This document shows positions 1 to 49,062 of a stretch of DNA of 58,560 nt, piece by piece (positions within the stretch are counted from its first letter, which is position 1; the number at the start of each line of letters is the position of its first letter). The DNA is from a virus, in IMG/VR virus record IMGVR_UViG_3300020179_000036, positions 1 to 58,560 of that record; one strand, 5' to 3'. A program made the translations under genes and the position numbers. The notes beneath the pieces were generated by a model, which worked only from the letters and a program-made list of their open reading frames with translations, was not told the DNA's origin and ran no database searches.

Positions 1-1
1 T

Positions 2-3000
2 CCTCCTGCGCCCCCTGCTCCCCCCACGCTTGTCCAGGCACCTGTGCCGGATGACGAATGGGCTCGTCGCTTTGCAGAGCAAATCCAAGCCAACCGTGCA
101 GCTATTGATGCCGGTGAGATGACTATTGACGATCTGCTGGCTAATAACATCCAGAAGATTGAGTCGCCCTCTGGTGCCACCACGTATCAACCTGTCCAGC
201 CACAGGCCATGGTTGAGGGCTACCGGTCTTGGAGCGACTTGGTAAGTCGGTCTGATGCCACCGGCATTCGGACAATGACTGACGAGCAGATTGCCAGTGA
301 TACAGCTGCATGGCTTGCAAGAAACAACTACAGCACCGAAGCAGTATTTGAAAACTTGAAGCGCCTGAGCGGCCCGTTGTCGGCCTACAAAGAAAACCTA
401 GTTGCCATGCGCTCAATGGCCTTGTTGGTTGACAGCACAAACCTGGAAGCAGGTGTTGCTGCCAACCGCTGGCTCAACAGCGTTGTGGACGAAGCTGCCG
501 ACATGGGCCAGTTGACTGCTGAGCTGGTGACTGCCGCGGCCAAGCAGGATCGTGCCAACCGTGCCTTTGAATCTGTTACTAGACCGTTGGGTCAGTTGCT
601 GCGTAGCACCCAAATACCACGGCCTGAGCCTGGCTCTGTTCCGTTTAAGGACGGCGACGCAGCTGCTGCTGTGGTCGATGTTGAGGTGGTGCAACCTGGT
701 AAGAGCATTGGCGCTGACTTTGAAAAAGAGCTGGCCAAGGACCAAGAAGAGCTGATTGCTGACACCATCGGCGCCAAGATCAGTCCCGAAACTCGTGAGG
801 CCATTGTCACTGGCCAATACGACAACCCCAAGGTGATTGAGGAGCTGCAAGCCCTAGCTCTCAACATGGCGCAAGGCGCCGTTACACCTGGCTTTAGCCA
901 AGGCTTTTATTCCAAGATGAACAAAAGCGTAGGCCTTGGAGCGGAAGGTCTAATGATGTACCGCTCCAGCCAGCTGTTGTCATCAGGCGTCACCTTGTGG
1001 GGCAACGTTATTAACAGCGCCCTGCGCACGGTGGAACTGCCGTTTACGCAAGCTGTAGGTGCACTGGTCACTGGCAACCCACAGCGGGCTAGCCGGTCGT
1101 TAATGATCTACGGCCAATACGTCAGCAATTTGGCTAACGCTTTCCGTATGGGCGTGGAGTCGTTCAAGGTAGGCCGCGGCCTCTTTGACCTAGACCGCAG
1201 CCAGGTGGACTTCTTGGACCGCTTGGCAAAGCAAGATGCCAATGCCGAACTTATTGATACTGCTGCTAAGGGCGAATGGAACCTAAACACCTTGCCTTGG
1301 GTGTCAGTGCAAGACAGAAACAACTGGGCCATAGCGCAAAGGCGACTGTGGCAAACCCTTAATCTCAGCAGCCGCTTGCAAGTATCTGTTGACTCTGCCT
1401 TCAAAACCATGGTGGGCCAGTCGTTTGAATACGTGCGCAACCTGCAACCTGGCCTTGATCACGCTGCCCGCCTAGGGCTTGTTAACAACAGCAAGGAGGC
1501 TTGGCGGTTTGCACAGGACTATGCGCAGGCTGCAGTAGATCGCCGCCTGCAAGACGTTGTGATCGACGGCAAAACCATTCTTGATGGCGTCATGGATAGC
1601 CCCCATGCGCAAACTGCGACTAGGTGGGCCACTTTTACCGACGACATCTGGGCAAGCATGGAGCCGCGCACTATGCAGCGGGGCATGGAAATTGCCGAAG
1701 CCAAGGGTTTTAGAGATGCAGAAGCTAAGGCTTACGCCGAGGAATATGTAAACAAGGGCCCTGTGGGGGTTTTTGGAGAGCGCGTTTCTGACGTTCCGTT
1801 CTTTGCACGTACTTTCAGCGTGATGCCAAAGCTTTGGCAGACAGGCCTGGACTCAAAAGCAGCCCCCTTGTTTGCCCTAATACAGCCCTTTAACCGCACT
1901 CCTGGAGACATTATTAAGTCGGCGGCTCGCAAGACGCCACTGGCTCCTTTGGTAGATACGTGGTGGCGAGATGTGTTTTCTGAGGATGCCATGACCCGTG
2001 ACCGGGCATATGGCGATGTAGCGACTGGTGCTGCTGCTATCGCTCTGCTAAGTATTGCTGCAACTCATGGCCGCATACAGCTCACGGGTGGTGGCCCTGT
2101 TAACCCAGACGCAAGGCGCAAGTGGCTAGAGCAAGAAGGTAAGCAGCCGTATTCTTTGCGGTTCCGCACAGGAACTGACGAGAACGGCAATCCAATCTTT
2201 ACCGATTGGATCAGCATGCGAACTTTAGAACCTTTCGCGTCTTTGTTTGGAGGCTTAGCTGACTACCAAGAACTTGCGAACAAAGTGAGCACGGAAGCCC
2301 GTGAGCGCATGGGCTCAGCAATAATTATTGATTTTATAACTGCAGTAGGCCTTGGCCAAGTAAATAAGTCGTACTTTCAGGGTGTTATGGAAATTTACGA
2401 AGCGGCCATGAGCGCGGGCGAAACTGACATTGGCCCCAACCGGAGGCACCCCACCGCCCGTTACCTTGAGCGCCTTGTAGCAAGTCTCCTGCCTGGCAGC
2501 AGCGCACTACGTGCTGGCCGTCGCCTTGCCGACCCTACTGCCCGAGAAGTCGAACCCAGCAACAACCCCAACTTGGCGATGCGGTTGTTTGAGGAAACCG
2601 CAAGCGAAATTAAAAACATGATCCCTGGGTGGTCTGAGTCCCTACCTCCCAAGCGCAACTGGATTACGGGAGATCCCGTTATCCTGAGCGGCGTGTGGGG
2701 CGATTCGTTCCTGCCAGCTGATCAACCGTGGCTTGCGTCGTTGCTGCAGCTAAGCCCTGCGTCGCCATTCCAGCTAAAGCGTGACCCTGGAGAAGCAGTG
2801 CTGCGAGAGATGGGTCAACTTGCTGGCCGCGGCGCTGGCTTTGTTGGGCCCAGGTCCACAGACTTTACTAATGGCGGAACAATTAAGGACAACCGCTTGA
2901 GCCCTGTTGAGTTTGAGCAGTACATCCTGGCCATCAGCCGTACACCCGATCAGTTCGGCAGAACGCTGCTGCAGGCACTGGATGAAGAAATAAAGAGCGA

Positions 3001-3244
3001 CCTGTACCAGCAGAACCCACAGGGCCAACCCAGTGAACGAGTACCAAGCCTGCGCGTTGCTGCTTTGAACACCGTGATCAGCAAGTACCTGGCGCTAGGC
3101 CGCGAGACCTTCCTTACAGGGCCTTACGGCGTGCGGCTAATGGAGAACAAGGACTACTCCGAAGGAGCTAACCGTGACGTCCAGTTTCGGCTTAAATACG
3201 GTCAAGAGATTGACCCACGGTCCTTCATAGAGGCTCTGCGCTGA
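2..3244 (+). CDS. Internal virion protein, gp16-like (phage B), 5' end outside window
   Basis: The reading frame is open to the left edge, where it reads through a Pro/Ala-rich linker, so the gene starts upstream and at least 1080 residues are visible. Its very large size, helix-rich and Ala/Gln-rich make-up, and place directly before the tail fibre match T7 gp16, the ejected core protein that helps DNA cross the cell envelope. It differs from the gp16-like product at 39873-43202, which sits at the same relative place before the second tail fibre. Some local resemblance remains in the stretch before the middle (a hydrophobic helical segment near residues 300-400). No muralytic motif is visible in this part. 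The stop overlaps the fibre start. Family assignment rests mainly on size and synteny. Confidence 0.75.
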   Translation, partial: PPAPPAPPTLVQAPVPDDEWARRFAEQIQANRAAIDAGEMTIDDLLANNIQKIESPSGATTYQPVQPQAMVEGYRSWSDLVSRSDATGIRTMTDEQIASDTAAWLARNNYSTEAVFENLKRLSGPLSAYKENLVAMRSMALLVDSTNLEAGVAANRWLNSVVDEAADMGQLTAELVTAAAKQDRANRAFESVTRPLGQLLRSTQIPRPEPGSVPFKDGDAAAAVVDVEVVQPGKSIGADFEKELAKDQEELIADTIGAKISPETREAIVTGQYDNPKVIEELQALALNMAQGAVTPGFSQGFYSKMNKSVGLGAEGLMMYRSSQLLSSGVTLWGNVINSALRTVELPFTQAVGALVTGNPQRASRSLMIYGQYVSNLANAFRMGVESFKVGRGLFDLDRSQVDFLDRLAKQDANAELIDTAAKGEWNLNTLPWVSVQDRNNWAIAQRRLWQTLNLSSRLQVSVDSAFKTMVGQSFEYVRNLQPGLDHAARLGLVNNSKEAWRFAQDYAQAAVDRRLQDVVIDGKTILDGVMDSPHAQTATRWATFTDDIWASMEPRTMQRGMEIAEAKGFRDAEAKAYAEEYVNKGPVGVFGERVSDVPFFARTFSVMPKLWQTGLDSKAAPLFALIQPFNRTPGDIIKSAARKTPLAPLVDTWWRDVFSEDAMTRDRAYGDVATGAAAIALLSIAATHGRIQLTGGGPVNPDARRKWLEQEGKQPYSLRFRTGTDENGNPIFTDWISMRTLEPFASLFGGLADYQELANKVSTEARERMGSAIIIDFITAVGLGQVNKSYFQGVMEIYEAAMSAGETDIGPNRRHPTARYLERLVASLLPGSSALRAGRRLADPTAREVEPSNNPNLAMRLFEETASEIKNMIPGWSESLPPKRNWITGDPVILSGVWGDSFLPADQPWLASLLQLSPASPFQLKRDPGEAVLREMGQLAGRGAGFVGPRSTDFTNGGTIKDNRLSPVEFEQYILAISRTPDQFGRTLLQALDEEIKSDLYQQNPQGQPSERVPSLRVAALNTVISKYLALGRETFLTGPYGVRLMENKDYSEGANRDVQFRLKYGQEIDPRSFIEALR

Positions 3245-4668
3245 TGGCTTACTCCTACGTCACCTACACGGGAAACGGCGCCACGACCCAGTTTGCGGTG
3301 CCGTTTGGATACATCCGTAAGGAACACATTGAAGTTTCTTTGAACGGGACGGTTACCGCAGCCTTCACCTGGGTTACCAACGCCACCATTCAAATGAACA
3401 CCGCTCCCGCCAACGCGGTAGTGGTCAAAATTTTACGGATCACCCCAGTCAACGCATCGCTAGTCAATTTCACTGACGGCAGCACGCCGGTTGCTAGCGA
3501 CTTCAACACGACTAACACGCAAGGCCTGTACACCAACCAGGAATTGCGGGACATATCGGACAGCACAAACGCCCTGTCAAGCCAAGCGGTAACGGCAGCG
3601 CAAAACGCGACGAACACAGCCAATAGTGCGTCAGCTTCTGCGGCATCTGCGGTTTCTACAGCTAACAACGCAAACAGCACAGCGCAATCAACTATTGCTA
3701 CAGCAAACACAGCTAGCGCAAACGCTGCGGCGGCAGTTAGCACAGCCAACAATGCATCAGCAGCTGCTGCAGCTGCAGTTAATACGGCTAACAATGCCTC
3801 TGCTGCAGTTGGAGCTGCAACTACAACTGCCAATAACGCAGCGGCTGCTGTGGCGGCAGCTACTTCTGCGGCAAACGGAGCTGTTAATACCGCAAACGCG
3901 GCCAATGCCACAGCAAATACAGCACTAGGCAACAGCCAAACAGCAATTACTACAGCCAACAACGCCTCCACTGCGGCAAGTAACGCAACGACTACCGCTA
4001 ACAACGCTTCTGCTACCGCTAACAACGCTTCTACAGCAGCAAATAACGCTGTTGGCACAGCAAACTCTGCAGCAGCTGCTGTAGCCAATGCACTTCTCTA
4101 TGACGTCGTTGCCAACGTAGCTGCAATACCAGCCAACCCTGCAAACAACAAAGCTGTTGAAGTAACAAACAGCTCAAACATTCAAGCATTTTCGCCACTT
4201 GCGGGACTGCCTGCAGGCTTTGTTGGAGCTAGTGGCCTGAGCGTGCGGATTGTTTATTCAACTGCAGGCGCGACGTGGAATTTTATTCAGTATTTCCCTA
4301 ACGATCCAGAAAACCGTTACTTAAAATTATCTGGCGGCACTTTGACTGGCGCTATTACTGGAACACAAACTGGCAACATTATTCCTTTTTATTTTAATAC
4401 TTACGCTGGACTGCCATCGGCATCTACTTACCACGGTGCCGTTGCTCACGCTCATGACACCGGAGGGTTGTACTACGCCCATGGCGGGCAATGGGTCCAA
4501 CTGGCGGTGGCTGGAGCTTCTGCAGGGGCAATTATTGAAAATCAACAAACGATCAATAGTAGCTACACCTTGTCAGCGGGCTACAATGGCTCATCAGTAG
4601 GACCTGTTACGGTAGCCGCTGGGGTTTCGGTGACAGTTCCCGCCAATGCCGTCTGGGCAATTCTCTAG
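3244..4668 (+). CDS. Tail fibre protein, copy 1
   Basis: 474 aa. Residues 1-110 resemble the T7 gp17 tail-binding domain (a YTGNG..T.F.VPF opening). Residues 115-280 are an Ala/Asn/Thr-rich heptad-like stalk of repeated TANNAS-type units, expected to form a trimeric coiled coil. The C-terminal part is a fibre domain with LKLSGGTLTGAITG, a motif common in phage fibres. The stop lies 2 bp before the adhesin gene, so fibre and DGR adhesin are probably made together. The N-terminal 160 residues differ from the second fibre (43245-44786), while the stalk and C-terminus are nearly identical. This suggests the anchor domain stays with each phage and the distal part moves as a module. Confidence 0.88.
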   Translation: MAYSYVTYTGNGATTQFAVPFGYIRKEHIEVSLNGTVTAAFTWVTNATIQMNTAPANAVVVKILRITPVNASLVNFTDGSTPVASDFNTTNTQGLYTNQELRDISDSTNALSSQAVTAAQNATNTANSASASAASAVSTANNANSTAQSTIATANTASANAAAAVSTANNASAAAAAAVNTANNASAAVGAATTTANNAAAAVAAATSAANGAVNTANAANATANTALGNSQTAITTANNASTAASNATTTANNASATANNASTAANNAVGTANSAAAAVANALLYDVVANVAAIPANPANNKAVEVTNSSNIQAFSPLAGLPAGFVGASGLSVRIVYSTAGATWNFIQYFPNDPENRYLKLSGGTLTGAITGTQTGNIIPFYFNTYAGLPSASTYHGAVAHAHDTGGLYYAHGGQWVQLAVAGASAGAIIENQQTINSSYTLSAGYNGSSVGPVTVAAGVSVTVPANAVWAIL

Positions 4669-4670
4669 CC

Positions 4671-5999
4671 ATGGCTTACGGATCGGTCAAAGTTGATTCC
4701 ATTGTGACTAGCACGCAGGTCATCAATACTGATGACTTGGTTGCTAAGACACGTACCGTCAGCCCCGGCACGGGTTTGACTGGCGGTGGCGATTTGTCTG
4801 CCAACCGCACCATCAGTGCTGATGTGGCAACGCAAGCTGAAGCCGAGGCCGGCGCGGCTGCAAACAAATTGATGACGCCGCAGCGCACAGCGCAGGCGAT
4901 TGCTTTGTTGTCGCCGGCTCCGGTGTTTGCCTCGCAGGCCGAAGCTGAAGCTGGCTCGGCATCCGACAAAGTGATGTCCCCGCTGCGCACAGCGCAGGCG
5001 ATTGCAGCTTTAAGTGGCGGCGCTGTCTACTACAACCGCAGACCTCCTCTGCATCGCGGCTCGCTGTTTTACAAGACGGCTGCAACCACAATCAGCGTGG
5101 TGGCCGGTGCTGTGCTTAACGGCAAGCTCTACGCCACGGCAACCGCTGTGACGATGCCTGCCAGCTTTACCAACAACAGCGACTACGCCATTTGGCAGCA
5201 CCCCAGCACTGGTGCTTTGGTGGCTGACGCCAACTACACAACAGCACCTGCTGGCGCCACTGGCGGCTCGATTGTTGGCGGCTTCCACTACGTCCCTAGC
5301 GGGCGGCCAACGGGTTTTAATAACACCTCCCCAACAGGTAGTGCCGAAATCCTGGAGTTCAGCATTTTTGATCTGACTTATCGCCCCAGCTGCCCAGACC
5401 CTCGCGGAATGGTTTGCATCAACGATGCGTTTTGGATTGACATCTATTTGGCAGGGGCCACCAGCTATGCCGGCAGCACGTTCTCTGCTGTCCCCAGCAG
5501 CAAGATCGGCCTGACCATTGCTGATGGCAGCAGCTACGCCCTGGTGCCCGCTCAGTACGGCGGCAACGGCAGCAGCAACTACGGCAGCTTTACCTGGTAC
5601 GAAGCCTCAGAAATGGCTGCCAGCTTTGGCAAGCGCCTGCCGTTCTATGCCGAGTTTGCAGCGGCTGCGTTTGGTGCTCCAGAGGCCGGCAGCCGTGGCT
5701 CTGACGCAGGCACGGTGCAGTGGGAGCGAATTAGCAAGTTTGGTTTGGCCCAGGCAACGGGCGTCATGTGGCAGTGGGGCGCAGACACCTCTGGAAACGG
5801 CTCTGGCGGCTCCTGGTCGGCCAACACTGAGGGTAGAGGCAGTGTGTATTCGACCGATGCCCGCGCCGTCCTCCTCGGGGGCTACTGGAACGACGGGGCC
5901 TACTCCGGGTCTCGTTACGCCGTCTGGGACACCGGTCCCTGGGCCTCCGCCAACGGCCTTGGGGCGCGTTTTGCGGCTGGGCACCTGGTACTTGGATAG
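4671..5999 (+). CDS. DGR target: variable tail-tip adhesin with C-type-lectin/FGE-like fold, copy 1
   Basis: 442 aa. Residues 1-120 carry two fibre-type repeats (QAEAEAGxAxxKxMxPxRTAQAIA, as in lambda-like side-tail fibres) that would attach it to the fibre. The C-terminal half resembles formylglycine-generating-enzyme/C-type-lectin proteins that DGRs use as targets (FGKRLPFYAEFAAAA, then WQWGAD, then the GGxW...GSR...GARFA ending). The last 45 residues include the variable repeat. Variable positions are surface-type residues (Y, D, G, V, T, A), all encoded where the template has AAC, AAT, ATC, GAG or ATT codons. The product should be the receptor-binding tip of the tail. The gene is identical to 44789-46117. 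Confidence 0.9.
   Translation: MAYGSVKVDSIVTSTQVINTDDLVAKTRTVSPGTGLTGGGDLSANRTISADVATQAEAEAGAAANKLMTPQRTAQAIALLSPAPVFASQAEAEAGSASDKVMSPLRTAQAIAALSGGAVYYNRRPPLHRGSLFYKTAATTISVVAGAVLNGKLYATATAVTMPASFTNNSDYAIWQHPSTGALVADANYTTAPAGATGGSIVGGFHYVPSGRPTGFNNTSPTGSAEILEFSIFDLTYRPSCPDPRGMVCINDAFWIDIYLAGATSYAGSTFSAVPSSKIGLTIADGSSYALVPAQYGGNGSSNYGSFTWYEASEMAASFGKRLPFYAEFAAAAFGAPEAGSRGSDAGTVQWERISKFGLAQATGVMWQWGADTSGNGSGGSWSANTEGRGSVYSTDARAVLLGGYWNDGAYSGSRYAVWDTGPWASANGLGARFAAGHLVLG
5863..5979 (+). repeat. DGR variable repeat (VR), copy 1
   Basis: 117 bp matching the template repeat at 6435-6551. I count 19 differences, all at template adenines; no C, G or T of the template is changed. The last 20 bp or so (GGGGCGCGTTTTGCGGCTG) contain no adenine and match exactly, as expected for the initiation-of-mutagenic-homology end. 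It lies in frame at the 3' end of the adhesin gene. Confidence 0.96.
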
Positions 6000-6001
6000 G
6001 A

Positions 6002-6015
6002 GGCGCGACAGCGCC
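6002..6015 (+). other. Small hairpin just after the VR, copy 1
   Basis: GGCGC-GACA-GCGCC, a 5-bp GC stem with a 4-nt loop, 22 bp after the VR and just after the adhesin stop. Bordetella phage BPP-1 has a stem-loop with a 4-nt loop downstream of its VR that helps target retrohoming. This one is shorter and further away. Repeated at 46120-46133. Confidence 0.5.
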
Positions 6016-6023
6016 GACTGCAA

Positions 6024-6419
6024 ATGACCAACAAGCGAGCCTCCGCAGATCCTTCTAAGGAGGCTCATGGCCTTTACATGGTGGAAAAATACGAGCGGGT
6101 CATTGACTACCTTTACCCACTTGCGCAGACAATTCCACGCAAGCACGGCACCTTTCGAGAGCTGCTAATTCGGCAGCTTTTTTTGGTGGCCGAGCACCTT
6201 AACGACGCCATCAAGGCCAACCAGCTTAGCCGCTGCTATGTACTCGACGGCAGCCTTGGCCAGCTCAGGCTGTTGCTGCGGTTCATGGTTCATCACAAGC
6301 GCAAGCTGATAACAGAGCACCAACTGGAAACCGCTCAGGCCCTAGCAGGCGAGGTGGGCTCCATGCTTGGCGGCTGGATCAAAAGACTGCAGGAACAGAA
6401 AAAAAGTGCAAAGCTGTAG
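6024..6419 (+). CDS. avd: DGR accessory variability determinant (Avd), copy 1
   Basis: 131 aa, helix-rich and basic, with the four-helix-bundle pattern of Avd/S23-like proteins (YERVIDYLYPLAQTIPRKH..., LLIRQLFLVAEHLNDAI, LLLRFMVHHK). Avd forms a pentamer that binds the reverse transcriptase and the template RNA and is needed for cDNA synthesis. It sits between the target gene and the template repeat, the usual DGR order. Identical to 46142-46537. Confidence 0.9.
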   Translation: MTNKRASADPSKEAHGLYMVEKYERVIDYLYPLAQTIPRKHGTFRELLIRQLFLVAEHLNDAIKANQLSRCYVLDGSLGQLRLLLRFMVHHKRKLITEHQLETAQALAGEVGSMLGGWIKRLQEQKKSAKL

Positions 6420-6434
6420 GCGGGCTTGATGGGA

Positions 6435-6551
6435 GCGCCGTCATCCTCGGGGGCAACTGGAACAACGAGGCCAACTCCGGGTCTCGTAACGCCAACTGGA
6501 ACAACAATCCCTGGAACTCCAACAACAACATTGGGGCGCGTTTTGCGGCTG
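6435..6551 (+). repeat. DGR template repeat (TR), copy 1
   Basis: 117-bp non-coding template between avd and the reverse transcriptase. In the frame of the target it holds 12 AAC codons and one AAT, the usual adenine-rich design that lets A-mutagenesis reach many amino acids without making stop codons. The 3' end matches the VR exactly. The RNA probably extends through 6552-6706, the spacer to the reverse transcriptase, which in known DGRs is needed for priming. Confidence 0.96.
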
Positions 6552-6706
6552 TGGCCACTGCTAAACACCACTTGGCTCTGCTGTTTCTCCGGGGCAGTAG
6601 GCCGGTGCCAACCAGGTGCCAGCCATCAAGTCCAGCTTCGGCAAACTCAGGGCCGAGTGGTGGCAATGGCAGGGAGTAGCTCGTCGAAACCTGCCGCTAC
6701 CTTCTA

Positions 6707-7681
6707 ATGGGCAAAAAATTTCGCAATCTCTACGAACAGATTTATCAGTGGGATAATTTGCTTGCAGCCTACGCAGAGGCAAAGCGCGGCAAAACTTACA
6801 GCAGTTCCTATTTACGTTTTAAGGAGTACTACCTAGCCAATTTGCGCCACCTTCAGTTGCGATTGATTGAAGGCGGCTGGAGACCCGATCCGCAGTTGGA
6901 GTTTGAAATTATTGATCCCAAGAAGCGAATGATTGCCTGCCAAAGTTTTCGTGATCGCGTGCTGCACCACGCCCTGATACAGGTGGTCGGGCCGATTCTT
7001 GACGCCGCGATGATGCCCCAGGTGTTTGCCTGCCGGGTCGGCTTGGGTACGCATCGCTGTGTCACCCGAATGCAGCAGTTGATGCGGCAGAACCCTGATG
7101 CGTGGCTGCTGCACGTGGACTTCAGCAAGTTCTTTCCCACCATTCCCCAAGACCTGCTACTGGCCCACTTGGGCAAGAAGCTCACCTGCCAGCGCACGTT
7201 GCTGTTAATTGAGCAGGTACTAAGCGTGCAGCCCACTGGCGTGCCGATTGGGGCGCTCACCAGTCAGACCTTTGCCAACTATTGGGGCGGCAGGCTGGAT
7301 CGTTTTATCGCATTTAAAGGCATTGGCAGTTTTGTGCGTTACATGGATGACGCGGCTGTGATTGTGAGCAGCAAAGCCGATGGACTGCAACTTAAAGATG
7401 AGATTTGCTCTTTTGTTGCCAACGAAATGGGGCAGCGGATTGGCAAGTGGAGTTTAGGCCCCGTGAATCGCGGCATCACCTTTTGCGGTTTTCGCATCCG
7501 CCGCAAGTACAAGCTGATCAAGCGACAGTCCATAATCCGCCAACGGCGCAAACTCAAGGTGCTGCTTAAGCACCAGGACTACGAAGGCTGGCGCCATTCG
7601 CAGATTGCTTGGATGGGCCACGTGCGCCATGGTGATGGACAGAATAGTCTTGTCCACCTAGGGCTTGCATTACCATGCTGA
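6707..7681 (+). CDS. DGR reverse transcriptase, copy 1
   Basis: 324 aa, a compact RT with no maturase or endonuclease domain, as usual for DGRs. The first catalytic Asp is in HVDFSKFFPTIP (D138), the active-site YMDD is at 212-215, and residues 181-187 read IGALTSQ, the [IVL]GxxxSQ motif that separates DGR RTs from retron and group II RTs (QGxxxSP). It would copy the TR RNA into cDNA with errors at adenines. Its 3' end overlaps the next gene by 7 bp. Identical to 46825-47799. Confidence 0.96.
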   Translation: MGKKFRNLYEQIYQWDNLLAAYAEAKRGKTYSSSYLRFKEYYLANLRHLQLRLIEGGWRPDPQLEFEIIDPKKRMIACQSFRDRVLHHALIQVVGPILDAAMMPQVFACRVGLGTHRCVTRMQQLMRQNPDAWLLHVDFSKFFPTIPQDLLLAHLGKKLTCQRTLLLIEQVLSVQPTGVPIGALTSQTFANYWGGRLDRFIAFKGIGSFVRYMDDAAVIVSSKADGLQLKDEICSFVANEMGQRIGKWSLGPVNRGITFCGFRIRRKYKLIKRQSIIRQRRKLKVLLKHQDYEGWRHSQIAWMGHVRHGDGQNSLVHLGLALPC

Positions 7682-7926
7682 TCGTCAACACCCCCTCCGA
7701 CTTGGCAGCTGCAGAAGTTGGCACCGAGCGGACGGCTTTTCTGAACAGCCTGCTGAATGACTACATCGTTTTTGATGACGCGGCCTATCCCGAAGGCTAT
7801 GACCGCAATCTGAAGGAAGGCGATGAAGGCTTTATTGCTCCCGTTATTCGCCAAGAATGGAACGCAGGCGCTGCTGCTGGCTGGGGTTTCGCCAGCCGAG
7901 AGCAGATCGAGGCATTGCTGAATTAA
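7675..7926 (+). CDS. Conserved small protein after the DGR reverse transcriptase (phage A)
   Basis: 83 aa, acidic, no recognised domain. A close homologue follows the second RT at 47793-48041. The N-terminal 60 residues are nearly identical and the ends differ, so the edge of the repeat falls inside this gene. Tight coupling to the RT suggests co-transcription, but it is not a known DGR component and may be a tail or virion protein. Confidence 0.75.
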   Translation: MLIVNTPSDLAAAEVGTERTAFLNSLLNDYIVFDDAAYPEGYDRNLKEGDEGFIAPVIRQEWNAGAAAGWGFASREQIEALLN

Positions 7927-8165
7927 TGGAAAAGCCGTTGTCGCTACTTGGTGCTGCAGTCGCAGTCCTTACTGCGATTGTCGGCACCACAGTGGCGATT
8001 GATTCGCGTTACGCCAAGTCTGCGGAAGTGCAACAGCAATTTTGCGAGGCACGGAAGCAGCAGCTGCGTGACCGAATCTTTGAACTTGACCTGAAGCCTG
8101 ACAAATCACCTTCGGACAAGGCGCTCAAGGAGTACCTCAAGCAGCAGCTAAGCGATGCCTGTTAA
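7926..8165 (+). CDS. Small membrane protein, possible lysis protein
   Basis: 79 aa. Residues 5-26 form a hydrophobic helix (LLGAAVAVLTAIVGTTVAI) and the rest is charged and helical. The start ATG overlaps the stop of the previous gene by one base. Phage B has no equivalent here. A position near an endolysin and a single N-terminal membrane span would fit a holin or spanin-like role, by inference only. Confidence 0.65.
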   Translation: MEKPLSLLGAAVAVLTAIVGTTVAIDSRYAKSAEVQQQFCEARKQQLRDRIFELDLKPDKSPSDKALKEYLKQQLSDAC

Positions 8166-8645: not shown

Positions 8646-8897
8646 GTGGTTGAGGTCGCTGCCGCGGTGTTAGGCGCCGCCATTACAGTCAGCGCCATGG
8701 GCGTAGGGGCCTTGGGGGCACGCGGCAGGGAGGGGAGGGACGCTCTGATTCGTTTGGCTTCCAGTGTGGACAACGTGGCAGAACGCCTTGAACAGTTGCA
8801 CGAGGACATCAGGAGTGACCGCAAGGAGTTCTTTTCTCGCCTAAACAATGTTGAGCAGCGTGTTGCTCGGCTTGAGGTGCCCGGCCCGCACATTTGA
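8646..8897 (+). CDS. Membrane plus coiled-coil small protein (holin or spanin-like)
   Basis: 83 aa from GTG. Residues 2-25 are hydrophobic (VEVAAAVLGAAITVSAMGVGAL), and the rest is a charged heptad-like helix (EGRDALIRLASSVDNVAERLEQLHEDI...). The phage B homologue at 48227-48472 also starts with GTG at this residue, which decides the start here. One membrane span followed by a coiled coil next to an endolysin would suit a class II holin or inner-membrane spanin; not proven. Confidence 0.7.
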   Translation: MVEVAAAVLGAAITVSAMGVGALGARGREGRDALIRLASSVDNVAERLEQLHEDIRSDRKEFFSRLNNVEQRVARLEVPGPHI

Positions 8898-8943
8898 CAC
8901 AGTTCTCCACGTGTGTAGCGTTAGGTGGTGAGATCCCTGCGCT

Positions 8944-9129
8944 ATGGATCGTTTCGGTCAGTACGTCGCCTTGGCGATTGCGGTGCATGGGTTGGCGCTT
9001 GTGATCGTCAACATCACGCCAACGCCTAAGGACGACGAGGCTCTCGATGCAATCCAGCGAGTGGTGGTGAAGTTGTATCGAGCAGTCGAGATCCTCGCAG
9101 GGATCGTCGGGCCATTGGCGAAAAGGTAA
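8944..9129 (+). CDS. Small single-span membrane protein
   Basis: 61 aa with one hydrophobic helix near residues 6-26 and an amphipathic C-terminus. It lies in the lysis region, so a holin is possible. Phage B has a 51-aa membrane protein in the corresponding cluster (48710-48865) but with little sequence likeness. Confidence 0.6.
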   Translation: MDRFGQYVALAIAVHGLALVIVNITPTPKDDEALDAIQRVVVKLYRAVEILAGIVGPLAKR

Positions 9130-9132
9130 GCG

Positions 9133-9360
9133 GTGCAACCCTTTGTCGCACGCCAAGAACTGGATTTTAGGCAGGAGGCGACAAAAAGGCTGCTGCAGGA
9201 GCTGCACGAGCAGAACGACATTGATGGGCTGATGAATGTGGCCCTGCTGCTGAACAGCTTGTGGCATCAACAAAGCGCGATTGCCCGGTGGTTTGCCAAC
9301 GAAGCGGCTGAAAACCTGGGTGAGGCCTGGCAGTCGCAGCGGCCTAAGGACGACATGTGA
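9133..9360 (+). CDS. Conserved helical small protein
   Basis: 75 aa from GTG. Homologous to 48469-48723 (shared WHQQSAIA.W.A.EAA.NL.EA). The 3' end overlaps the end of the convergent C39-type gene by 17 bp. Function unknown. Confidence 0.75.
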   Translation: MQPFVARQELDFRQEATKRLLQELHEQNDIDGLMNVALLLNSLWHQQSAIARWFANEAAENLGEAWQSQRPKDDM

Positions 9361-10060
9361 GATACCAGCCACCGGAACCACCCGGCATCCAGCGTGGGTT
9401 CCAGTTTTTGCGGCTGTAGACGATGCCAGCGCCCTTGGTGTTGGGGGTGTAGCCCCCACCCACCAACTGAGCCTCGCCGTTGGGATCGTTCTGGATCCAG
9501 GCGGCATCGGTGTAGCCGATCACCACAGACCAATGCCCACCGCCCGTAGGAGCGCCTACAGGGCCCTTGTGGAGCCAGCCAACAGCAACAGGCCTGCCAG
9601 CGTCAATCTCGCTTTCCAGGGCCTCTGAAGTGCCATTGGTGTGGAAGTCAGCCTTGAGCCCCAGTTTTCGCAACGCAGCCAGCTGTGCTTGAGCTGAGGT
9701 GCTGTCACCAAACGGCTGCCGAACAGCGTTGTAGGCGTCGTCATTGGAGATCTTGCCCCAATACATGGCAAGCATGGCGCAAGAGGAGGAGAAGCACTCC
9801 CGGTAGCCCTGGCCGCTCTTGTTATCGAGTTGGCTCTGCCACTTGACGTTTAGCGGGTTGCGGACAAGTGCTGCATGTTGCTGCACTGGCAAGCTCTTGT
9901 AGATCTGTGCCCACTCCGCTGATTCAGTCAGTAGGCACGGATCTACGGCCTTGATGTGCTCAGCGAGCTTGATCACACCTTTGATTTGGTGTGCCTGGCC
10001 TTTGAAGTTCTGCCAGAACTGCAGCCACCGCTCGTCAGTAAACTGAATTTCCTGGATCAT
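9344..10060 (-). CDS. C39-like cysteine peptidase, probable endolysin of phage A
   Basis: 238 aa. The C-terminal part matches the papain-like C39 peptidase fold: catalytic Cys in RECFSSSCAMLAMY (about C89), His in GGGHWSVVIGY and Asn/Asp in WIQNDPNG. Residues 1-75 are a helical region. Located where phage B carries a GH73 plus M15 endolysin (49326-50318), it is the best endolysin candidate of phage A. C39-type peptidases also process peptides, so cell-wall cleavage is inferred from context. The ATG at 10060 is preferred because an upstream extension would overlap the divergent gene at 10090. Confidence 0.75.
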   Translation of the reverse strand: MIQEIQFTDERWLQFWQNFKGQAHQIKGVIKLAEHIKAVDPCLLTESAEWAQIYKSLPVQQHAALVRNPLNVKWQSQLDNKSGQGYRECFSSSCAMLAMYWGKISNDDAYNAVRQPFGDSTSAQAQLAALRKLGLKADFHTNGTSEALESEIDAGRPVAVGWLHKGPVGAPTGGGHWSVVIGYTDAAWIQNDPNGEAQLVGGGYTPNTKGAGIVYSRKNWNPRWMPGGSGGWYLTCRP

Positions 10061-10089: not shown

Positions 10090-10383
10090 GTGGCTGATCT
10101 CGCAAAGGAACTTGAGGAGCTGCACGCTTCCGTCATCCGTGAAGTTCGGGACCGCATCGACAAGGGCGGCTACGACGATGACGGCAATCTCAAGCCGACC
10201 AGCAACGATGACCTGCGGGTGGCCTTGCAGCTGCTGAAGCAAAACAGCATTACCGCCAATCTCTCCGAGAGCGACACTGCCAAGTTGCGCTCACAAATGG
10301 CCGGCAAACTAGACTTCTCAGCGCTGAAGAACAAGGTCAACGTGGTGCCAATAGTGCGGCCTGACGAGTCCGCTACCGCTTGA
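10090..10383 (+). CDS. Terminase small subunit (phage A), opposite to the large subunit
   Basis: 97 aa from GTG, helical N-terminus. It aligns with the phage B small subunit at 52258-52500 (LxxLHA..., KLDEG/DKGG, LRxxLKxNxI, small acidic C-terminus). It would bind DNA ends and hand them to the large subunit during packaging. Unusually, it lies on the plus strand and converges on the large subunit gene (11-bp overlap), while in phage B both are on the minus strand. The 29-bp gap to the divergent C39 gene leaves little room for a promoter. Confidence 0.7.
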   Translation: MADLAKELEELHASVIREVRDRIDKGGYDDDGNLKPTSNDDLRVALQLLKQNSITANLSESDTAKLRSQMAGKLDFSALKNKVNVVPIVRPDESATA

Positions 10384-12181
10384 CTCCACCAAATGCTCTG
10401 GCCTTGGGCTGTGGTCTCCACCCCATTGCCAGGGCATCAATGCTGGCGCCGGTTTCATCGAACCAGGCCTGGCGCATTAGCTCATCCATCTCGTCCTGGC
10501 GAGCTGCTTTGGCCTTTTCCTGGTCCTGGGCCGCGGCATCAATAAAAAACTTGACCCCCAGGGCTAGCGCATCAAGGCGATCATCAAACGTCAGTGAGCC
10601 CCGCTCAACGGTGATGCGGCTCATCTGGTACATCAATGAGCGCTGGTGGCCAGTTTCGGGGTCACGTTCAGCGTCGTGATAGTCCCTGCGGATCAGCTCG
10701 CTGCTGACCACCAGGCGGTGTTGCTGAACCAGCGGGGCGAGGGTGTCCACGATGCGGCGTTCCTTTTGCTGGCTGACGCGCACCTCCTCGATTGAGACCG
10801 GATGCACCTTGGCCATTGCCGGTGACAGCAGAGCGGTGAACATGCCATCGCCCATGTTGCTCTCAGCCACGCAGTAGCTGACCTGCCAGCGCTTGGCGCG
10901 GCTGGCCAGCATCGTCAGCACCTCCGGCTCATAACCCCGGGTGGTGCCCCCGGACTCAAGCAGGAAGAAATTGCCGTTCAGCTCAGCGATTACAGCCCAG
11001 GCCAGCTCATCACTGCCGCGGCCAGAGGGGTCAATCGCCAGCACGCAGCGCCAAGTTTCTTCCTGCGATACCCAGCCATTCACCACAGCTGGGCGGTGGT
11101 AGTAGCGGTCAGCGCCCAGGCCAACGCACAGCAGCTCCTGGATGCGGTTCTCCGGCGTGGCGGCCCACACCACCACCTCTGGCAGGGCCTTGCCATCAAG
11201 GTCCATCACCATCAGATCACCCAATCGAATGGGGTAGCGATCGAGGGTGCTGAGGCGGCAGTTCAGCTGGTACTGCAGCTGGACCGCAGCCCGGGTCATG
11301 CGGGTTTCGCGCTTTAGCAGCTCGTGGTGACCAAAGCGTTCGGGATCTGTTGGTTCCCCCGCCAGGGTTACGTTGCTCTGAACGGACTGAGCAATGCCGG
11401 GTGCCAAGTTGCCCTCGTAGCAATCCCACTCATCGGCATCGGTCGGATCAGGAAATCGAGCCGGCCAGAAGCGAATTGAGTAGTTCCGCTCGCGCACCAG
11501 TCGTAGGTACAGCGAGCTCTCGAGGTGGGGAGTACCCAGGTAGCGAATCTGTCTTGGAAATACCTGGCGTTGTCCGGCCTGGCTGTAGTCCCTAGGTGCG
11601 TTGGGGTCAAAGTCCGGTTCATCCGGCTTGATGATTGCCTCAAGCTCGGTCACCGCCTGGGCCAGGCGTTCCTGCTTTAGCGGTGTGATTGAGTTGTTAA
11701 GCGTCTCAATGTCGTCCGGCAGCGCCAGGGTGCAGCGCTTACCCGTGAGCGAGGGGGACAAAATCCCCACAGTGCGAACACTTGGGCTCTGGTCGATCAC
11801 AGCAGGGCCCACATCAAAGGCCTTGATGGATGAGCGGCCATCAGGCCTGGGCTCCAGGCAACGAAGAATGTCCACATCCCGGATGCAGCGGGCCATGAAC
11901 GTCGCCACCTCATCGGCTTTCTCAGCGGTAGCCGCTGGAATCAAGACTTTTTCGGTAAAGGGGTCATGACGCAGCCGCCAGAGGGCGTAGCTACCGGACT
12001 CAAAGCTCTTGCCCAACCCGCGGTAGGCCGTGGTGATGGAACGATCAGGACCGTTCTCGAGCCATTCAGCGACTTCCAACTGGCGGATGGTCGGCGTATC
12101 CGCCAGGTTCAGCTCCCGCAGCAGGTAGCAAAGGAAATGGGGGAAAGGCCCTAGTTCAGGTGGCAACGGTTCCCATTGCAT
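10373..12181 (-). CDS. Terminase large subunit (phage A)
   Basis: 602 aa, T7 gp19-like packaging motor. Walker A AYRGLGKS at residues 52-59, a Walker B-like LALPDDIE, and RNase-H-like nuclease acids in VLAIDPSGRGSDE and FDDRLDALALG. Homologous to 50528-52258. The ATG at 12181 is preferred because the aligned N-terminus (W.PLP..) starts there in both phages. Confidence 0.96.
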   Translation of the reverse strand: MQWEPLPPELGPFPHFLCYLLRELNLADTPTIRQLEVAEWLENGPDRSITTAYRGLGKSFESGSYALWRLRHDPFTEKVLIPAATAEKADEVATFMARCIRDVDILRCLEPRPDGRSSIKAFDVGPAVIDQSPSVRTVGILSPSLTGKRCTLALPDDIETLNNSITPLKQERLAQAVTELEAIIKPDEPDFDPNAPRDYSQAGQRQVFPRQIRYLGTPHLESSLYLRLVRERNYSIRFWPARFPDPTDADEWDCYEGNLAPGIAQSVQSNVTLAGEPTDPERFGHHELLKRETRMTRAAVQLQYQLNCRLSTLDRYPIRLGDLMVMDLDGKALPEVVVWAATPENRIQELLCVGLGADRYYHRPAVVNGWVSQEETWRCVLAIDPSGRGSDELAWAVIAELNGNFFLLESGGTTRGYEPEVLTMLASRAKRWQVSYCVAESNMGDGMFTALLSPAMAKVHPVSIEEVRVSQQKERRIVDTLAPLVQQHRLVVSSELIRRDYHDAERDPETGHQRSLMYQMSRITVERGSLTFDDRLDALALGVKFFIDAAAQDQEKAKAARQDEMDELMRQAWFDETGASIDALAMGWRPQPKARAFGGVKR

Positions 12182-12184
12182 CAA

Positions 12185-12222
12185 GAGAGCCCTCCCACAT
12201 CCAAGGACGCAGAAGGGCTCTC
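12185..12222 (-). other. Inverted repeat before the large terminase gene
   Basis: GAGAGCCCT at 12185-12193 pairs with AGGGCTCTC at 12214-12222, a 9-bp stem with a 20-nt loop, ending 3 bp upstream of the terminase start. There is no U-run, so translational control or RNA processing fits better than a terminator. Confidence 0.45.
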
Positions 12223-12292
12223 CCAACAACCACCACCAGACACAAGATCTGGCAGTGAGCTTCCCAGCACCACCTGGGTGAGCACGACAACT

Positions 12293-13757: not shown

Positions 13758-14732
13758 ATGACCACCACCACCACCAAGGCCCGCAAGGGCCGCAAGACTT
13801 ACGACGGCCCTACGGCTGAGGAGAAGCTCTGCAGCGAGCTAGTGGCTCTCCTTGAGCAAGGGGTGAACCCTTGGCGTCGGGACTGGGCCAGCAGCGGCCA
13901 ACAGGGCCAGCATCGCAACCTGCTCACCGGGGCCAGCTACCGGGGAAGCAACCCTGCAGTGCTTGAGATGTACTCAGCCTGTAGAGGTTTCACCTTGCCG
14001 CTGTGGCTGGGCTGCGCTCAGGCCAAGGCCCAGGGCTGGTTCCCGCGTAAGGGTTCGAAGGGCTGCTACGTGCTCAGGCCACAGCTCAACAAACGAGAGC
14101 TAGAGGATGACAACGGCCAACCACTGCTGCAGCCCGATGGCACGCGATCAGTGGCGGCCTGGGTGAGCTACAAACCGGCCTGCGTCTTTAACGTCGCCGA
14201 CCTGGTGGGCGGTGATGAAGCCAGCCAGGAGGTACTGCAGAACGCCATTGCCGCGGCCATGGCCGGGGCCGTGGTGAAGCCTGAACCTGAACGCCTGGCA
14301 GCTGCTGAGGCTGTGCTCGGGGCCTGGCCTGTCAGCACCACCTGGGCCGGTGATCGGGCTTTTTACAACTCCGGCGCTGATCAGATCACGATGCCCACCA
14401 GGGCCCAGTTCGGCACAGCTGCTGGCCTGTATGCCACCTGGGCCCATGAACAGGCCCACAGCACCGGACACAGCAGCCGGCTAGCCCGTGATCTATCTGG
14501 CGGGTTTGGCAGCCAGAAATACGCCAGGGAGGAACTGGTTGCAGAGCTCGCAGCCTTCCTGATCTGCAACCGCCTGCAGATCCCCTCAGCTGCAGAGAAC
14601 CACGCCGCCTACCTGGGCCACTGGGCCGGTGTGCTCAAGGAAGGCCACAAGGTGCTTTTCAAGGCCCTGAGCGATGCCACCAAGGCCGCCAACGCGATCT
14701 GCGGGCCGGAAGTGGTAGAGGCCGACGGCTGA
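13758..14732 (+). CDS. ArdC-like antirestriction protein
   Basis: 324 aa. Residues 15-115 match the ArdC N-terminal ssDNA-binding domain (LVALLEQGVNPWRRDW...NLLTGASYRGSNPAVL...GWFPRKGSKG). The C-terminal half is a zincin metallopeptidase with HEQAH at 230-234 and a downstream EELVAE supplying the third ligand. ArdC proteins, known from conjugative plasmids and some phages, protect incoming DNA from restriction. It is the first rightward early gene, as expected for an early defence. Its ATG follows a CA-rich leader (13741-13757) without a Shine-Dalgarno sequence. I see no homologue in phage B. Confidence 0.9.
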   Translation: MTTTTTKARKGRKTYDGPTAEEKLCSELVALLEQGVNPWRRDWASSGQQGQHRNLLTGASYRGSNPAVLEMYSACRGFTLPLWLGCAQAKAQGWFPRKGSKGCYVLRPQLNKRELEDDNGQPLLQPDGTRSVAAWVSYKPACVFNVADLVGGDEASQEVLQNAIAAAMAGAVVKPEPERLAAAEAVLGAWPVSTTWAGDRAFYNSGADQITMPTRAQFGTAAGLYATWAHEQAHSTGHSSRLARDLSGGFGSQKYAREELVAELAAFLICNRLQIPSAAENHAAYLGHWAGVLKEGHKVLFKALSDATKAANAICGPEVVEADG

Positions 14733-16369: not shown

Positions 16370-17368
16370 ATGGCAGGCACCGTCCGTAAGGCCTCTGACG
16401 GCAGCTGGATTGCCGACGTCACCGTCAACGGTGTGCGTCGCACTGGCAAATGCAAAAGCCGATCAGAAGCCCTGGCCCGCAAGCGAGAACTGCTCGAGCT
16501 GCTGCTGCAGCGCGATGCCAAGCCCCTTGCAGCCCCTCCGTACACCCTTAAAGAAGCCCGAGCTCTGTCCCTGCGCATCCGCTGGGCAGGCACCGCCTAC
16601 GAGCGCACAGCAGCGATCTACAGCCGCGAGGCCGTGGACTATTTCGGTGAGTTCTTCCCGGCCAACGAGATCACAGCTGCCTCTGTTGACACCTGGCGGC
16701 AGAAGCTGCTGTCCAAGGGCAACCGCCCCAGCACGGTCAACCGCAAGGTGTCAGCCATCAGGGCCATGCTCGCTGATGCCCACCTGCACGGGCACCTGCA
16801 GGAAATACCGCGGATGCCCCAGCAGCTGCGCCTGGTCAACACCAAAGACCGGGTGATCAGCGATGAGGAGCGCGATCGCTTCTGTCTGTACTTCAGGCAG
16901 GTGGGCGAGCCCGCCGCGGCCGACGTGCTGGTGTTCCTGCTTGAGACCGCCTGCCGGTGGGGTGAGGCCGAGCGGGTGAGGGGTCAGGACGTTGATCTGG
17001 TGAAGGGTCGCGTCACCTTCTGGGCCACCAAGAACGGCAAGCCCCGCTCTGTGCCGTTGACCCGCCGTGCCATTGAGGCCCTGGAGCCGCACCTGCCGGC
17101 CGTGCCCAGCCATCGAGTGTGGCCCTACAAGTACACCCGCTATCAGCACCTGTTCAACCTGGCTAAGGGTGCCCTGGGCCTGGCCAATGACAGGGCCCTG
17201 TCTATTCACACCACGCGCCACACCTGCGCCAGCAAGCTGGCCAGCAAGGGCATCCCGCTGCACCAGCTGATGACCTTCGGAGGATGGACAAGCCTGGCCT
17301 CAGTGCAGCGCTACCTGCACCTGCACACCGACGCCCTGGCCGCCTGCGTCAGCGCACTGGAGAGCTGA
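16370..17368 (+). CDS. Tyrosine recombinase (integrase) of phage A
   Basis: 332 aa. An N-terminal arm-binding domain (residues 1-50), a core-binding SAM-like domain (about 65-155) and a catalytic domain with R196, K221 or K224, H280, R283 (HTTRHT), W306 in place of the second His, and nucleophile Y315. It would insert the phage at a host attachment site. It shares only general likeness with the phage B integrase, so the two phages probably use different sites. The ATG follows a CA-rich leader (16341-16360). Confidence 0.95.
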   Translation: MAGTVRKASDGSWIADVTVNGVRRTGKCKSRSEALARKRELLELLLQRDAKPLAAPPYTLKEARALSLRIRWAGTAYERTAAIYSREAVDYFGEFFPANEITAASVDTWRQKLLSKGNRPSTVNRKVSAIRAMLADAHLHGHLQEIPRMPQQLRLVNTKDRVISDEERDRFCLYFRQVGEPAAADVLVFLLETACRWGEAERVRGQDVDLVKGRVTFWATKNGKPRSVPLTRRAIEALEPHLPAVPSHRVWPYKYTRYQHLFNLAKGALGLANDRALSIHTTRHTCASKLASKGIPLHQLMTFGGWTSLASVQRYLHLHTDALAACVSALES

Positions 17369-44786: not shown

Positions 44787-44788
44787 CC

Positions 44789-46117: not shown

Positions 46118-46119
46118 GA

Positions 46120-46133
46120 GGCGCGACAGCGCC
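46120..46133 (+). other. Small hairpin just after the VR, copy 2
   Basis: Same GGCGC-GACA-GCGCC hairpin as at 6002-6015, just after the adhesin stop. Confidence 0.5.
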
Positions 46134-46141
46134 GACTGCAA

Positions 46142-46537
46142 ATGACCAACAAGCGAGCCTCCGCAGATCCTTCTAAGGAGGCTCATGGCCTTTACATGGT
46201 GGAAAAATACGAGCGGGTCATTGACTACCTTTACCCACTTGCGCAGACAATTCCACGCAAGCACGGCACCTTTCGAGAGCTGCTAATTCGGCAGCTTTTT
46301 TTGGTGGCCGAGCACCTTAACGACGCCATCAAGGCCAACCAGCTTAGCCGCTGCTATGTACTCGACGGCAGCCTTGGCCAGCTCAGGCTGTTGCTGCGGT
46401 TCATGGTTCATCACAAGCGCAAGCTGATAACAGAGCACCAACTGGAAACCGCTCAGGCCCTAGCAGGCGAGGTGGGCTCCATGCTTGGCGGCTGGATCAA
46501 AAGACTGCAGGAACAGAAAAAAAGTGCAAAGCTGTAG
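46142..46537 (+). CDS. avd: DGR accessory variability determinant (Avd), copy 2
   Basis: 131 aa, identical to 6024-6419. Basic four-helix-bundle Avd between target gene and template repeat. Confidence 0.9.
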   Translation: MTNKRASADPSKEAHGLYMVEKYERVIDYLYPLAQTIPRKHGTFRELLIRQLFLVAEHLNDAIKANQLSRCYVLDGSLGQLRLLLRFMVHHKRKLITEHQLETAQALAGEVGSMLGGWIKRLQEQKKSAKL

Positions 46538-46552
46538 GCGGGCTTGATGGGA

Positions 46553-46669
46553 GCGCCGTCATCCTCGGGGGCAACTGGAACAACGAGGCCAACTCCGGGT
46601 CTCGTAACGCCAACTGGAACAACAATCCCTGGAACTCCAACAACAACATTGGGGCGCGTTTTGCGGCTG
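46553..46669 (+). repeat. DGR template repeat (TR), copy 2
   Basis: 117 bp, identical to 6435-6551. Non-coding, AAC-rich. The spacer to the reverse transcriptase (46670-46824) is probably part of the template RNA. Confidence 0.96.
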
Positions 46670-46824
46670 TGGCCACTGCTAAACACCACTTGGCTCTGCT
46701 GTTTCTCCGGGGCAGTAGGCCGGTGCCAACCAGGTGCCAGCCATCAAGTCCAGCTTCGGCAAACTCAGGGCCGAGTGGTGGCAATGGCAGGGAGTAGCTC
46801 GTCGAAACCTGCCGCTACCTTCTA

Positions 46825-47799: not shown

Positions 47800-48041
47800 T
47801 CGTCAACACCCCCTCCGACTTGGCAGCTGCAGAAGTCGGCACTGAGCGGACGGCTTTTCTGAACAGCCTGCTGAATGACTACATCGTTTTTGATGACGCG
47901 GCCTATCCCGAAGGCTATGACCGCAATCTGAAGGAAGGCGATGAGGGCTACATTGCTCCCGTTATTCGCCAAGAATGGAACGCAGGCGCTGCTGCTGGCT
48001 GGGGATTTACCAGTCGTGCGCAAATTGAAGAGCTGCTGTAA
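47793..48041 (+). CDS. Conserved small protein after the DGR reverse transcriptase (phage B)
   Basis: 82 aa, homologue of 7675-7926 with changes mainly near the C-terminus (GFTSRAQIEELL against GFASREQIEALLN). The identical core of the repeat ends inside this gene. Function unknown. Confidence 0.75.
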   Translation: MLIVNTPSDLAAAEVGTERTAFLNSLLNDYIVFDDAAYPEGYDRNLKEGDEGYIAPVIRQEWNAGAAAGWGFTSRAQIEELL

Positions 48042-49061: not shown

Positions 49062-49062
49062 A

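Follow-up and report, generated by a model that had tools for sequence, protein, structure and literature searches.

Components of the cassette

We analyzed a stretch of viral DNA of 58,560 nucleotides, hereafter the window, and confirmed that it carries a complete and genuine diversity-generating retroelement (DGR) of the Bordetella phage BPP-1 type at positions 4671-7681. Its parts are arranged in the order Mtd-like target with the variable repeat (VR), hairpin, Avd, template repeat (TR), Phage_DGR RNA (Rfam), and reverse transcriptase (RT). A first-pass annotation had described target, VR, Avd, TR, and RT as present and intact, and we found all five where it had placed them. The features of this first copy are the following.

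4671-5999, + strand: DGR target, Mtd-like receptor-binding protein (PF21916 mtd_2nd, phrog_11262)
5863-5979, + strand: variable repeat VR
6002-6015, no strand assigned: hairpin/cruciform GGCGC-GACA-GCGCC, 22 bp after VR
6024-6419, + strand: Avd accessory protein (PF22296 above cut-off, phrog_3206, PDB 4dwl)
6435-6551, + strand: template repeat TR
6575-6701, + strand: Phage_DGR RNA RF03022, segment between TR and RT
6707-7681, + strand: DGR reverse transcriptase (phrog_1423, PF00078, YMDD)
7675-7926, + strand: 83-aa ORF overlapping the RT stop, which goes with the module and delimits it on the right

The target, Avd, and RT each match solved structures by sequence. Residues 132-441 of the target align to the BPP-1 Mtd structures 1yu0-1yu4, and VR covers approximately residues 398-436 of its 442 residues, i.e. 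the C-terminal C-type-lectin part. In line with the earlier view of a DGR aimed at the tail tip, the target is an Mtd-type receptor-binding protein of the tail. The RT has the catalytic YMDD motif and matches phrog_1423 with an E of 2e-87; its best solved match, over the full length and at 39% identity, is the RT of BPP-1 (Brt, PDB 8ub7). The RNA segment scores 65.4 bits in both cassette copies (gathering score of 50). The hairpin following VR is present in 35 out of 35 relatives, with one covarying pair (G-C to C-G), and the same hairpin is absent after TR. Its stem has 5 Watson-Crick pairs here and 6-7 bp in a few relatives, and its loop is GACA here and GNNA across the relatives. The published norm for DGR hairpins is a GRNA loop on a stem of 7-10 bp, at 4-34 bp from VR (PMC3240598).

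VR and TR are 117 bp long and differ at 19 positions. As the first-pass annotation had counted, every one of these is a template adenine (TR has 29 adenines in 117 positions), and the probability of adenine-only mismatches arising by chance is C(29,19)/C(117,19) = 5.8e-15. The reported exact match of the 3' ends also holds, the final 21 bp being identical. All TR adenines lie at the first or second position of their codons, and VR has 14 altered codons, mostly AAC. That the pair is an ordinary diverged repeat, with no DGR involved, has a negligible probability: nothing favors it except that repeats exist, and it is refuted by the 19/19 adenine-only mismatches (p ~6e-15) and by the adjoining DGR-type RT, Avd, and Rfam DGR RNA.

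The same bias is seen across the relatives. In 35 of them the template adenines were changed in 524 of 922 cases, versus 40 of 3,100 for the other bases (517 of 909 versus 26 of 2,996 when the degenerate cassette L030 is left out). The identity at adenine columns among 32 relatives is 34% (0.34) for VR versus 88% (0.88) for TR. Two cassettes from one metagenome, L017 and L018, have 3,006 bp in common with 12 substitutions, 8 of them within VR (binomial 2e-9 for this clustering). All 8 are at TR adenines, and the two TRs are identical. This would represent a recent adenine-only change of VR, indirectly pointing to activity in these relatives.

These data also bear on whether the cassette is a relic of past hypermutation, now inactive in the two phages of the window (P1 and P2, see below). 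Decay does occur: the Synechococcus phages S-CBS1 and S-CBS3 retain the target, the hairpin, the tail of the RT, and the 83-aa ORF, having lost avd, TR, and most of the RT, and the TR of L030 is adenine-poor. However, the ORFs, RT motifs, TR, RNA, and hairpin are all intact in the window, TR is conserved across relatives while the adenine columns of VR are scrambled, and the VR changes between L017 and L018 are recent and restricted to adenines. We regard a relic as unlikely, and the DGR appears to be of a working type, with biochemical activity and receptor binding predicted by analogy. If it works like BPP-1, RT and Avd would bind an RNA that carries TR and, downstream of it, the RF03022 segment, and copying into cDNA would insert random bases wherever the template has an adenine. 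The hairpin directly after VR and the identical 3' end would guide this cDNA to the C-type-lectin end of the Mtd-like target, where it would take the place of VR. Up to ~15 surface residues of the receptor-binding protein, mostly encoded by AAC Asn codons, could be altered in this way.

Composition of the window

The whole cassette recurs 40,118 bp away, at 44789-47799, a second copy that the first-pass annotation had missed. The core of the duplicated sequence, hereafter R, is 3,322 bp long, 100% identical, and in the same orientation. The window is made of two cyanobacterial phages, P1 and P2, joined at the cassette, with P2 to the left of copy 1 and P1 to its right.

1-4396, no strand assigned: left part of P2, 3' part of a giant internal virion protein gene and fibre
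3244-4668, + strand: T7-type tail fibre of P2 (N-terminal PF03906)
4397-7718, + strand: repeat R, copy 1 (3,322 bp, 100% identical to 44515-47836)
7719-47836, no strand assigned: phage P1, one full circular genome unit (40,118 bp, taken with copy 2 of R; colinear with S-SRP02, G003, and G010)
10373-12229, - strand: T7-like terminase large subunit of P1 (91% to S-SRP02; PF22530)
16370-17368, + strand: integrase of P1
17862-20273, + strand: T7-like single-subunit RNA polymerase of P1 (phrog_414; 65% to S-SRP02)
43245-44786, + strand: T7-type tail fibre of P1
44515-47836, + strand: repeat R, copy 2
44789-46117, + strand: DGR target, copy 2
45981-46097, + strand: VR, copy 2 (identical to copy 1)
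46142-46537, + strand: Avd, copy 2
46553-46669, + strand: TR, copy 2 (identical to copy 1)
46693-46819, + strand: Phage_DGR RNA RF03022, copy 2
46825-47799, + strand: DGR reverse transcriptase, copy 2
47837-58560, no strand assigned: right part of P2, with endolysin, terminase (50528-52258, - strand), and integrase (56918-58021, + strand)

P1 has the features of a T7-like phage (Autographiviridae, S-SRP02 lineage), with its RNA polymerase, terminase, and portal, capsid, and tail-tube order. P2 has a terminase and a fibre of T7 type, the C-terminal part of the latter (from 3721 on) being 98% like the P1 fibre; its own RNA polymerase gene is not within the window. The first-pass annotation had assigned the cassette to one T7-like, integrase-carrying phage. 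The T7-like character with an RNA polymerase and the integrase stand, and the phages are kin of a Synechococcus podovirus, but the window is not one genome.

Two terminases (~43% identical), two integrases, and two tail fibres are present in the window, and the sister genomes G003, G005, G007, and G010 (~41-44 kb) have one of each. Positions 9344-44786 are circularly colinear with G003, G010, and S-SRP02, and the window ends are not. In the relative L146 both window ends are contiguous, with 3.5 kb between them and without a DGR; it is thus unlikely that the ends come from two different phages, since L146 carries both in order. A single natural phage of ~58 kb that duplicated its cassette would account for copies identical over 3,322 bp in the same orientation. 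Yet terminase, tail fibre, and integrase are also double and of diverged types, the sisters have single sets, P1 is colinear with its relatives, and L146 links the ends without the middle. We therefore rejected this reading, to which we give hardly any credence.

The window could also be a real molecule, in which circular P1 recombined into the P2 genome or prophage at the DGR (Campbell-type). The layout P2-R-P1-R-P2 is precisely what homologous recombination between identical stretches of 3.3 kb would produce, and the two phages, both with integrases, could be co-resident. However, an assembler gives the same layout if P1 is circular, P2 linear, and R common to both. An independent P1 contig (G019), 100% identical to window positions 7607-44641, ends 127 bp inside R on one side and 112 bp inside on the other, and a stop at 127 bp is what a graph with k=127 is expected to give at a repeat that it does not resolve. 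In addition, the left part of P2 matches another contig of the same dataset at 100%, and the layout is seen in no sister genome. We consider a real cointegrate improbable, somewhat more so than a relic cassette. As both ends of the independent P1 contig lie within the cassette, an artefact of assembly at the shared repeat is the most likely origin of the join: the complete 40.1 kb genome of P1 would have been joined into P2 by an assembler passing twice through R. The identity of the R copies, VR included, may then stem from assembly and is of no use for dating a transfer; we rejected the identical VRs as biological evidence, since the assembler would force this identity.

The cassette in P2 rests on the two flank junctions of this contig. 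No DGR was found in P2-type contigs independent of this record, the nearest relatives of P2 lack the cassette, and the P2-type relatives L079 and L104 have a diverged Mtd and no RT in their sequenced parts. The integrases of P1 and P2 hint at a temperate life. A search of sequenced bacterial genomes for an RT relative or a prophage copy as a link to the host gave none; the host of both phages is presumably a picocyanobacterium. Taken together, we think it very probable that P1 and P2 share near-identically an exchanged BPP-1-like DGR and that the window is P1 joined into P2.

The cassette as a probable travelling module

A single scan of IMG/VR revealed 44 related cassettes, in T7-like and siphovirus backbones; an exact 30-mer of the window RT had no match in IMG/VR. 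The module spans ~2.9 kb, from approximately residue 120 of the target through the hairpin, Avd, TR, RNA, and RT to the 83-aa ORF. Its edges are sharp, near 5030 and at 7890-7929. The same module was found in T7-like, lambda-J-type, and S-CBS-type backbones, and the RT tree is not sorted by backbone type. Considering its presence in unrelated phage types, the cassette seems to circulate as a complete, ready-to-use module for host range, and sequence comparison gives clear evidence for its exchange among phages. Very probably it is exchanged in one piece, recombining within the target gene on one side and downstream of the RT on the other. We lean slightly towards the view that the Mtd-DGR cassette travels among picocyanophages as a host-range module, swapped whole through recombination within the target gene by phages of unrelated build that meet in one host, and that P1 and P2 were caught just after such a swap. 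If so, a whole phage guild would hold one evolvable receptor-binding system in common. The occurrence of one module in both podovirus and siphovirus backbones shows that targeted hypermutation of receptor binding is itself shared horizontally.

These results are also a warning that a shared cassette can lead a metagenome assembly to merge two phages, so that virus catalogues may list genomes as too long and too rich in genes. Tropism switching could be studied in ecologically major hosts by way of DGR phages that have cultured picocyanobacterial relatives, with the decayed cassette of the isolates S-CBS1 and S-CBS3 as a cultured entry point.

Comparison with known systems

According to the first-pass annotation, DGRs are not known from T7-like cyanophage-type genomes with an RNA polymerase of their own. 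In the open-access literature on DGRs in T7-like phages, Autographiviridae, and cyanophages we likewise found no description of the present group; the 44 IMG/VR cassettes indicate that such elements are nevertheless not rare. Among isolates, the closest to P1 is the Synechococcus phage S-SRP02 (MW822601, PMC8790148), of 42.1 kb and circularly colinear (identities of 91% for the terminase, 65% for the RNA polymerase, and 80% for the integrase). It lacks DGR, Mtd, Avd, and RT, and other receptor-region genes occupy that place. The terminase of P2 is 76% identical to that of the Prochlorococcus phage P-SCSP1 group, which is absent among the RT, Avd, and Mtd matches listed. The Synechococcus siphoviruses S-CBS1 and S-CBS3, of a different phage type, have an Mtd 60% and 81% identical, respectively, over the module part, the same hairpin, and the same 83-aa ORF. 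Their avd, TR, and RT except its last ~35 residues are deleted, leaving the target frozen.

A transplanted BPP-1-like DGR of 2.9 kb has been described in a kappa-type prophage of Vibrio cholerae HE-09 (PMC3521204). It has the module size and content found here, and is fused inside the target gene to the tail gene of another phage (PMC3521204). Whereas this is one prophage-prophage case, the present module occurs in at least three backbones and is nearly identical in two phages from a single sample. The Bordetella phage BPP-1 (mtd-avd-TR-brt, tropism-switching) has the same gene order, parts, Rfam RNA, and hairpin after VR; besides the RT (39%), the identities are 45% for Avd and 41% for the C-terminal part of Mtd. 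Its hairpin stem has 8 bp versus 5 bp here (6-7 bp in few relatives), and the loop is GNNA across the present relatives, not only GRNA. Unlike in BPP-1, the carrier is a relative of T7-like cyanophages with its own RNA polymerase, and the target is fused to a different N-terminal adaptor.

The retroelement and its template adenines

The cassette at 4671-7681 is the diversity-generating retroelement (DGR) that the first-pass annotation had placed there, and its ORFs are open over the whole of their length.

Components of the first cassette copy, in window coordinates
4671-5999, target ORF, open
5863-5979, VR, 117 bp, aligned to TR
6002-6015, hairpin GGCGC-GACA-GCGCC, 22 bp after VR
6024-6419, Avd, open, aligns with structure 4dwl
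6435-6551, TR, 117 bp
6575-6701, phage DGR RNA in the TR-RT interval, Rfam match
6707-7681, RT, open, aligns with structure 8ub7

Mtd structures of BPP-1, the Bordetella phage with the reference DGR, align with target residues 132-441, and the nearest RT in the phage collection is that of BPP-1 (39% identity). The 117-bp alignment confirms the earlier count of 19 VR/TR mismatches, all at template adenines (TR has 29); the chance probability of adenine-only mismatches is about 6e-15. Every TR adenine falls on the first or second base of a codon; the changes affect 14 codons, for the most part AAC. Both the earlier observation and its reading as a DGR were right.

One scan with the RT retrieved 44 relatives, 75-91% identical. 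Across 35 complete VR/TR pairs, VR differs from TR at 524 of 922 template adenines, against 40 of 3,100 other bases. Identity in the adenine columns of 32 relatives is 0.34 for VR and 0.88 for TR. The best natural experiment on VR change in the family is provided by L017 and L018, contigs from one metagenome (IMG dataset 3300049043) that differ by 12 substitutions over 3,006 shared bp: eight are in VR, all eight at TR adenines, and the TRs are identical. Non-adenine VR/TR differences are rare, and among 34 relatives (L030 left out) 18 of 26 are T to G, mainly before C, which may reflect selection or a mutation bias of lesser strength beside the one at adenines. The relative L030 (9173-9289 and 9731-9847) has a TR with only 13 adenines, and most of its VR/TR differences are at non-adenines; its DGR seems to be failing.

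In 35 of 35 relatives a hairpin lies 22 bp after VR, its stem 5 bp or longer and its loop 4 nt; none of these relatives has a comparable one after TR. The fourth stem pair swaps between G-C and C-G among relatives, with no case of broken pairing. Target recognition in BPP-1 requires a hairpin of this kind; relative to published DGR hairpins, which have stems of 7-10 bp and GRNA loops (PMC3240598), the Watson-Crick stem here is shorter (5 bp) and the loop looser (GNNA). In most kin the stem (window 6000-6017) is flanked by GA on both strands, possibly as tandem G-A pairs, and three relatives (L021, L024, L046) have Watson-Crick pairs in their place.

Two phages in the window

The window is a contig from IMG/VR. 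Rfam matches for the phage DGR RNA number two in the window, and self-comparison places a second whole-cassette copy 40,118 bp downstream (99.2% identity over 4,209 bp). Differences are confined to the flanks: across the core (4397-7718 against 44515-47836), which takes in VR and TR, all 3,322 bp agree. The earlier reading of a single phage is wrong: the window comprises two, with the cassette present twice; T7-type terminases, T7-type tail fibres, and integrases likewise come in twos, the members of each pair having diverged.

Two IMG/VR relatives, G003 and G010, and an isolate, Synechococcus phage S-SRP02, are circularly colinear with the stretch 9344-44786 (terminase 91-92%, portal 82-85%, capsid 86-91% identity). 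The window ends are not colinear with these genomes, and their identities are 41-43% for the terminase and about 29% for the integrase. Since the middle is colinear and the ends are not, 7719-47836 is one complete genome of 40.1 kb, P1. The IMG/VR relatives G003, G005, G007, and G010 (41-44 kb) carry one DGR, terminase, integrase, and full RNA polymerase apiece; the G003 polymerase is partly repeated because the two termini of that contig share a 1,545-bp overlap at 95%. P1 also encodes an ArdC-like anti-restriction protein (phrog_7245, 13758-14732); G003 and G010 have it at about 76% identity, and it was not found in S-SRP02.

The independent contig L146 matches both window ends, in order, at 91-92%, with a gap between them of just 3.5 kb that encodes a single 1,044-aa tail fibre and no DGR. 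Both ends therefore come from one type of phage, P2; the Prochlorococcus P-SCSP1 group is the nearest to its terminase.

The contig G019 (IMGVR_UViG_3300021376_000156, 37,035 bp) matches window 7607-44641 at 100% identity and ends inside the identical core, 127 bp in at one side and 112 bp at the other; L153, from the same dataset, is 100% identical to window 1-1536. This pattern looks like an unresolved repeat common to two genomes, and 127 is a frequently used largest k-mer size. If P1 is circular, P2 linear, and the 3,322-bp repeat common to both, the assembly graph contains exactly such a path. Given the contig pattern and the graph path, the join is most likely computational, with a small probability that the window is a real recombinant molecule. 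In either case, the flank junctions imply that P2 has a cassette near-identical to that of P1, and assembly may be the reason why the two copies are exactly identical, down to the VR. The cassettes of L017 and L018 are 99.6% identical with right flanks diverging beyond, so here again two phages from one sample have a cassette in common.

Mobility and decay of the module

The nucleotide match between the window and most relatives starts around 5024-5050, within the target gene past the N-terminal adaptor, and stops around 7890-7929, at the end of an 83-aa ORF. The same module is found in S-SRP02-like and other T7-like phages, lambda-J-type siphoviruses, and S-CBS3-like siphoviruses. Backbone type changes 6 times on the RT tree, where many deep forks lack resolution, versus 7.1 with shuffled labels, so the cassette hardly follows the phage backbone.

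The cultured Synechococcus siphoviruses S-CBS1 and S-CBS3 keep the target, the hairpin, the last ~35 RT residues, and the 83-aa ORF. Both have lost avd, TR, and the remainder of RT in a deletion whose junction is the same in the two phages. Judged from these remnants, the region, annotated as mtd only, is a decayed DGR cassette.

Decayed cassette stretches
8972-9367, S-CBS3 (L048)
8671-9066, S-CBS1 (L049)

In the P2-type contigs L079 (5136-6436) and L104 (4099-5399), an Mtd 62% identical is directly followed by the 83-aa ORF, without Avd or RT; here too the cassette may have been lost, or the module may comprise the target only. In two Escherichia phage T7 records (LR745707, LR745708), the tail fibre gene 17 has a ~42% match to the C-terminal part of Mtd and looks like an engineered fibre-Mtd fusion.

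Proposed working and known systems

By analogy with BPP-1, RT and Avd would copy the TR RNA with random bases opposite adenines, and the cDNA would be written into VR beside the hairpin. The Mtd-like protein, whose gene lies right after the T7-type fibre gene, would then show the cell an altered lectin surface. We infer a picocyanobacterial host from S-SRP02 (Synechococcus SR-C1), S-CBS1, and S-CBS3. When bacterial genomes were scanned, no prophage carrying the RT of the cassette turned up.

In the open-access papers searched, we met no account of a DGR from this phage group. Systems of this kind, and their passage between phages, are already known: a precedent for transfer is Vibrio cholerae HE-09, in which a 2.9 kb DGR unit has become fused to part of a kappa-type prophage (PMC3521204), and Roux et al. 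conclude that transfer of DGRs is frequent (PMC8144416). The case is of interest because the cassette is evidently shared among cyanophages and has a decayed copy in cultured isolates.
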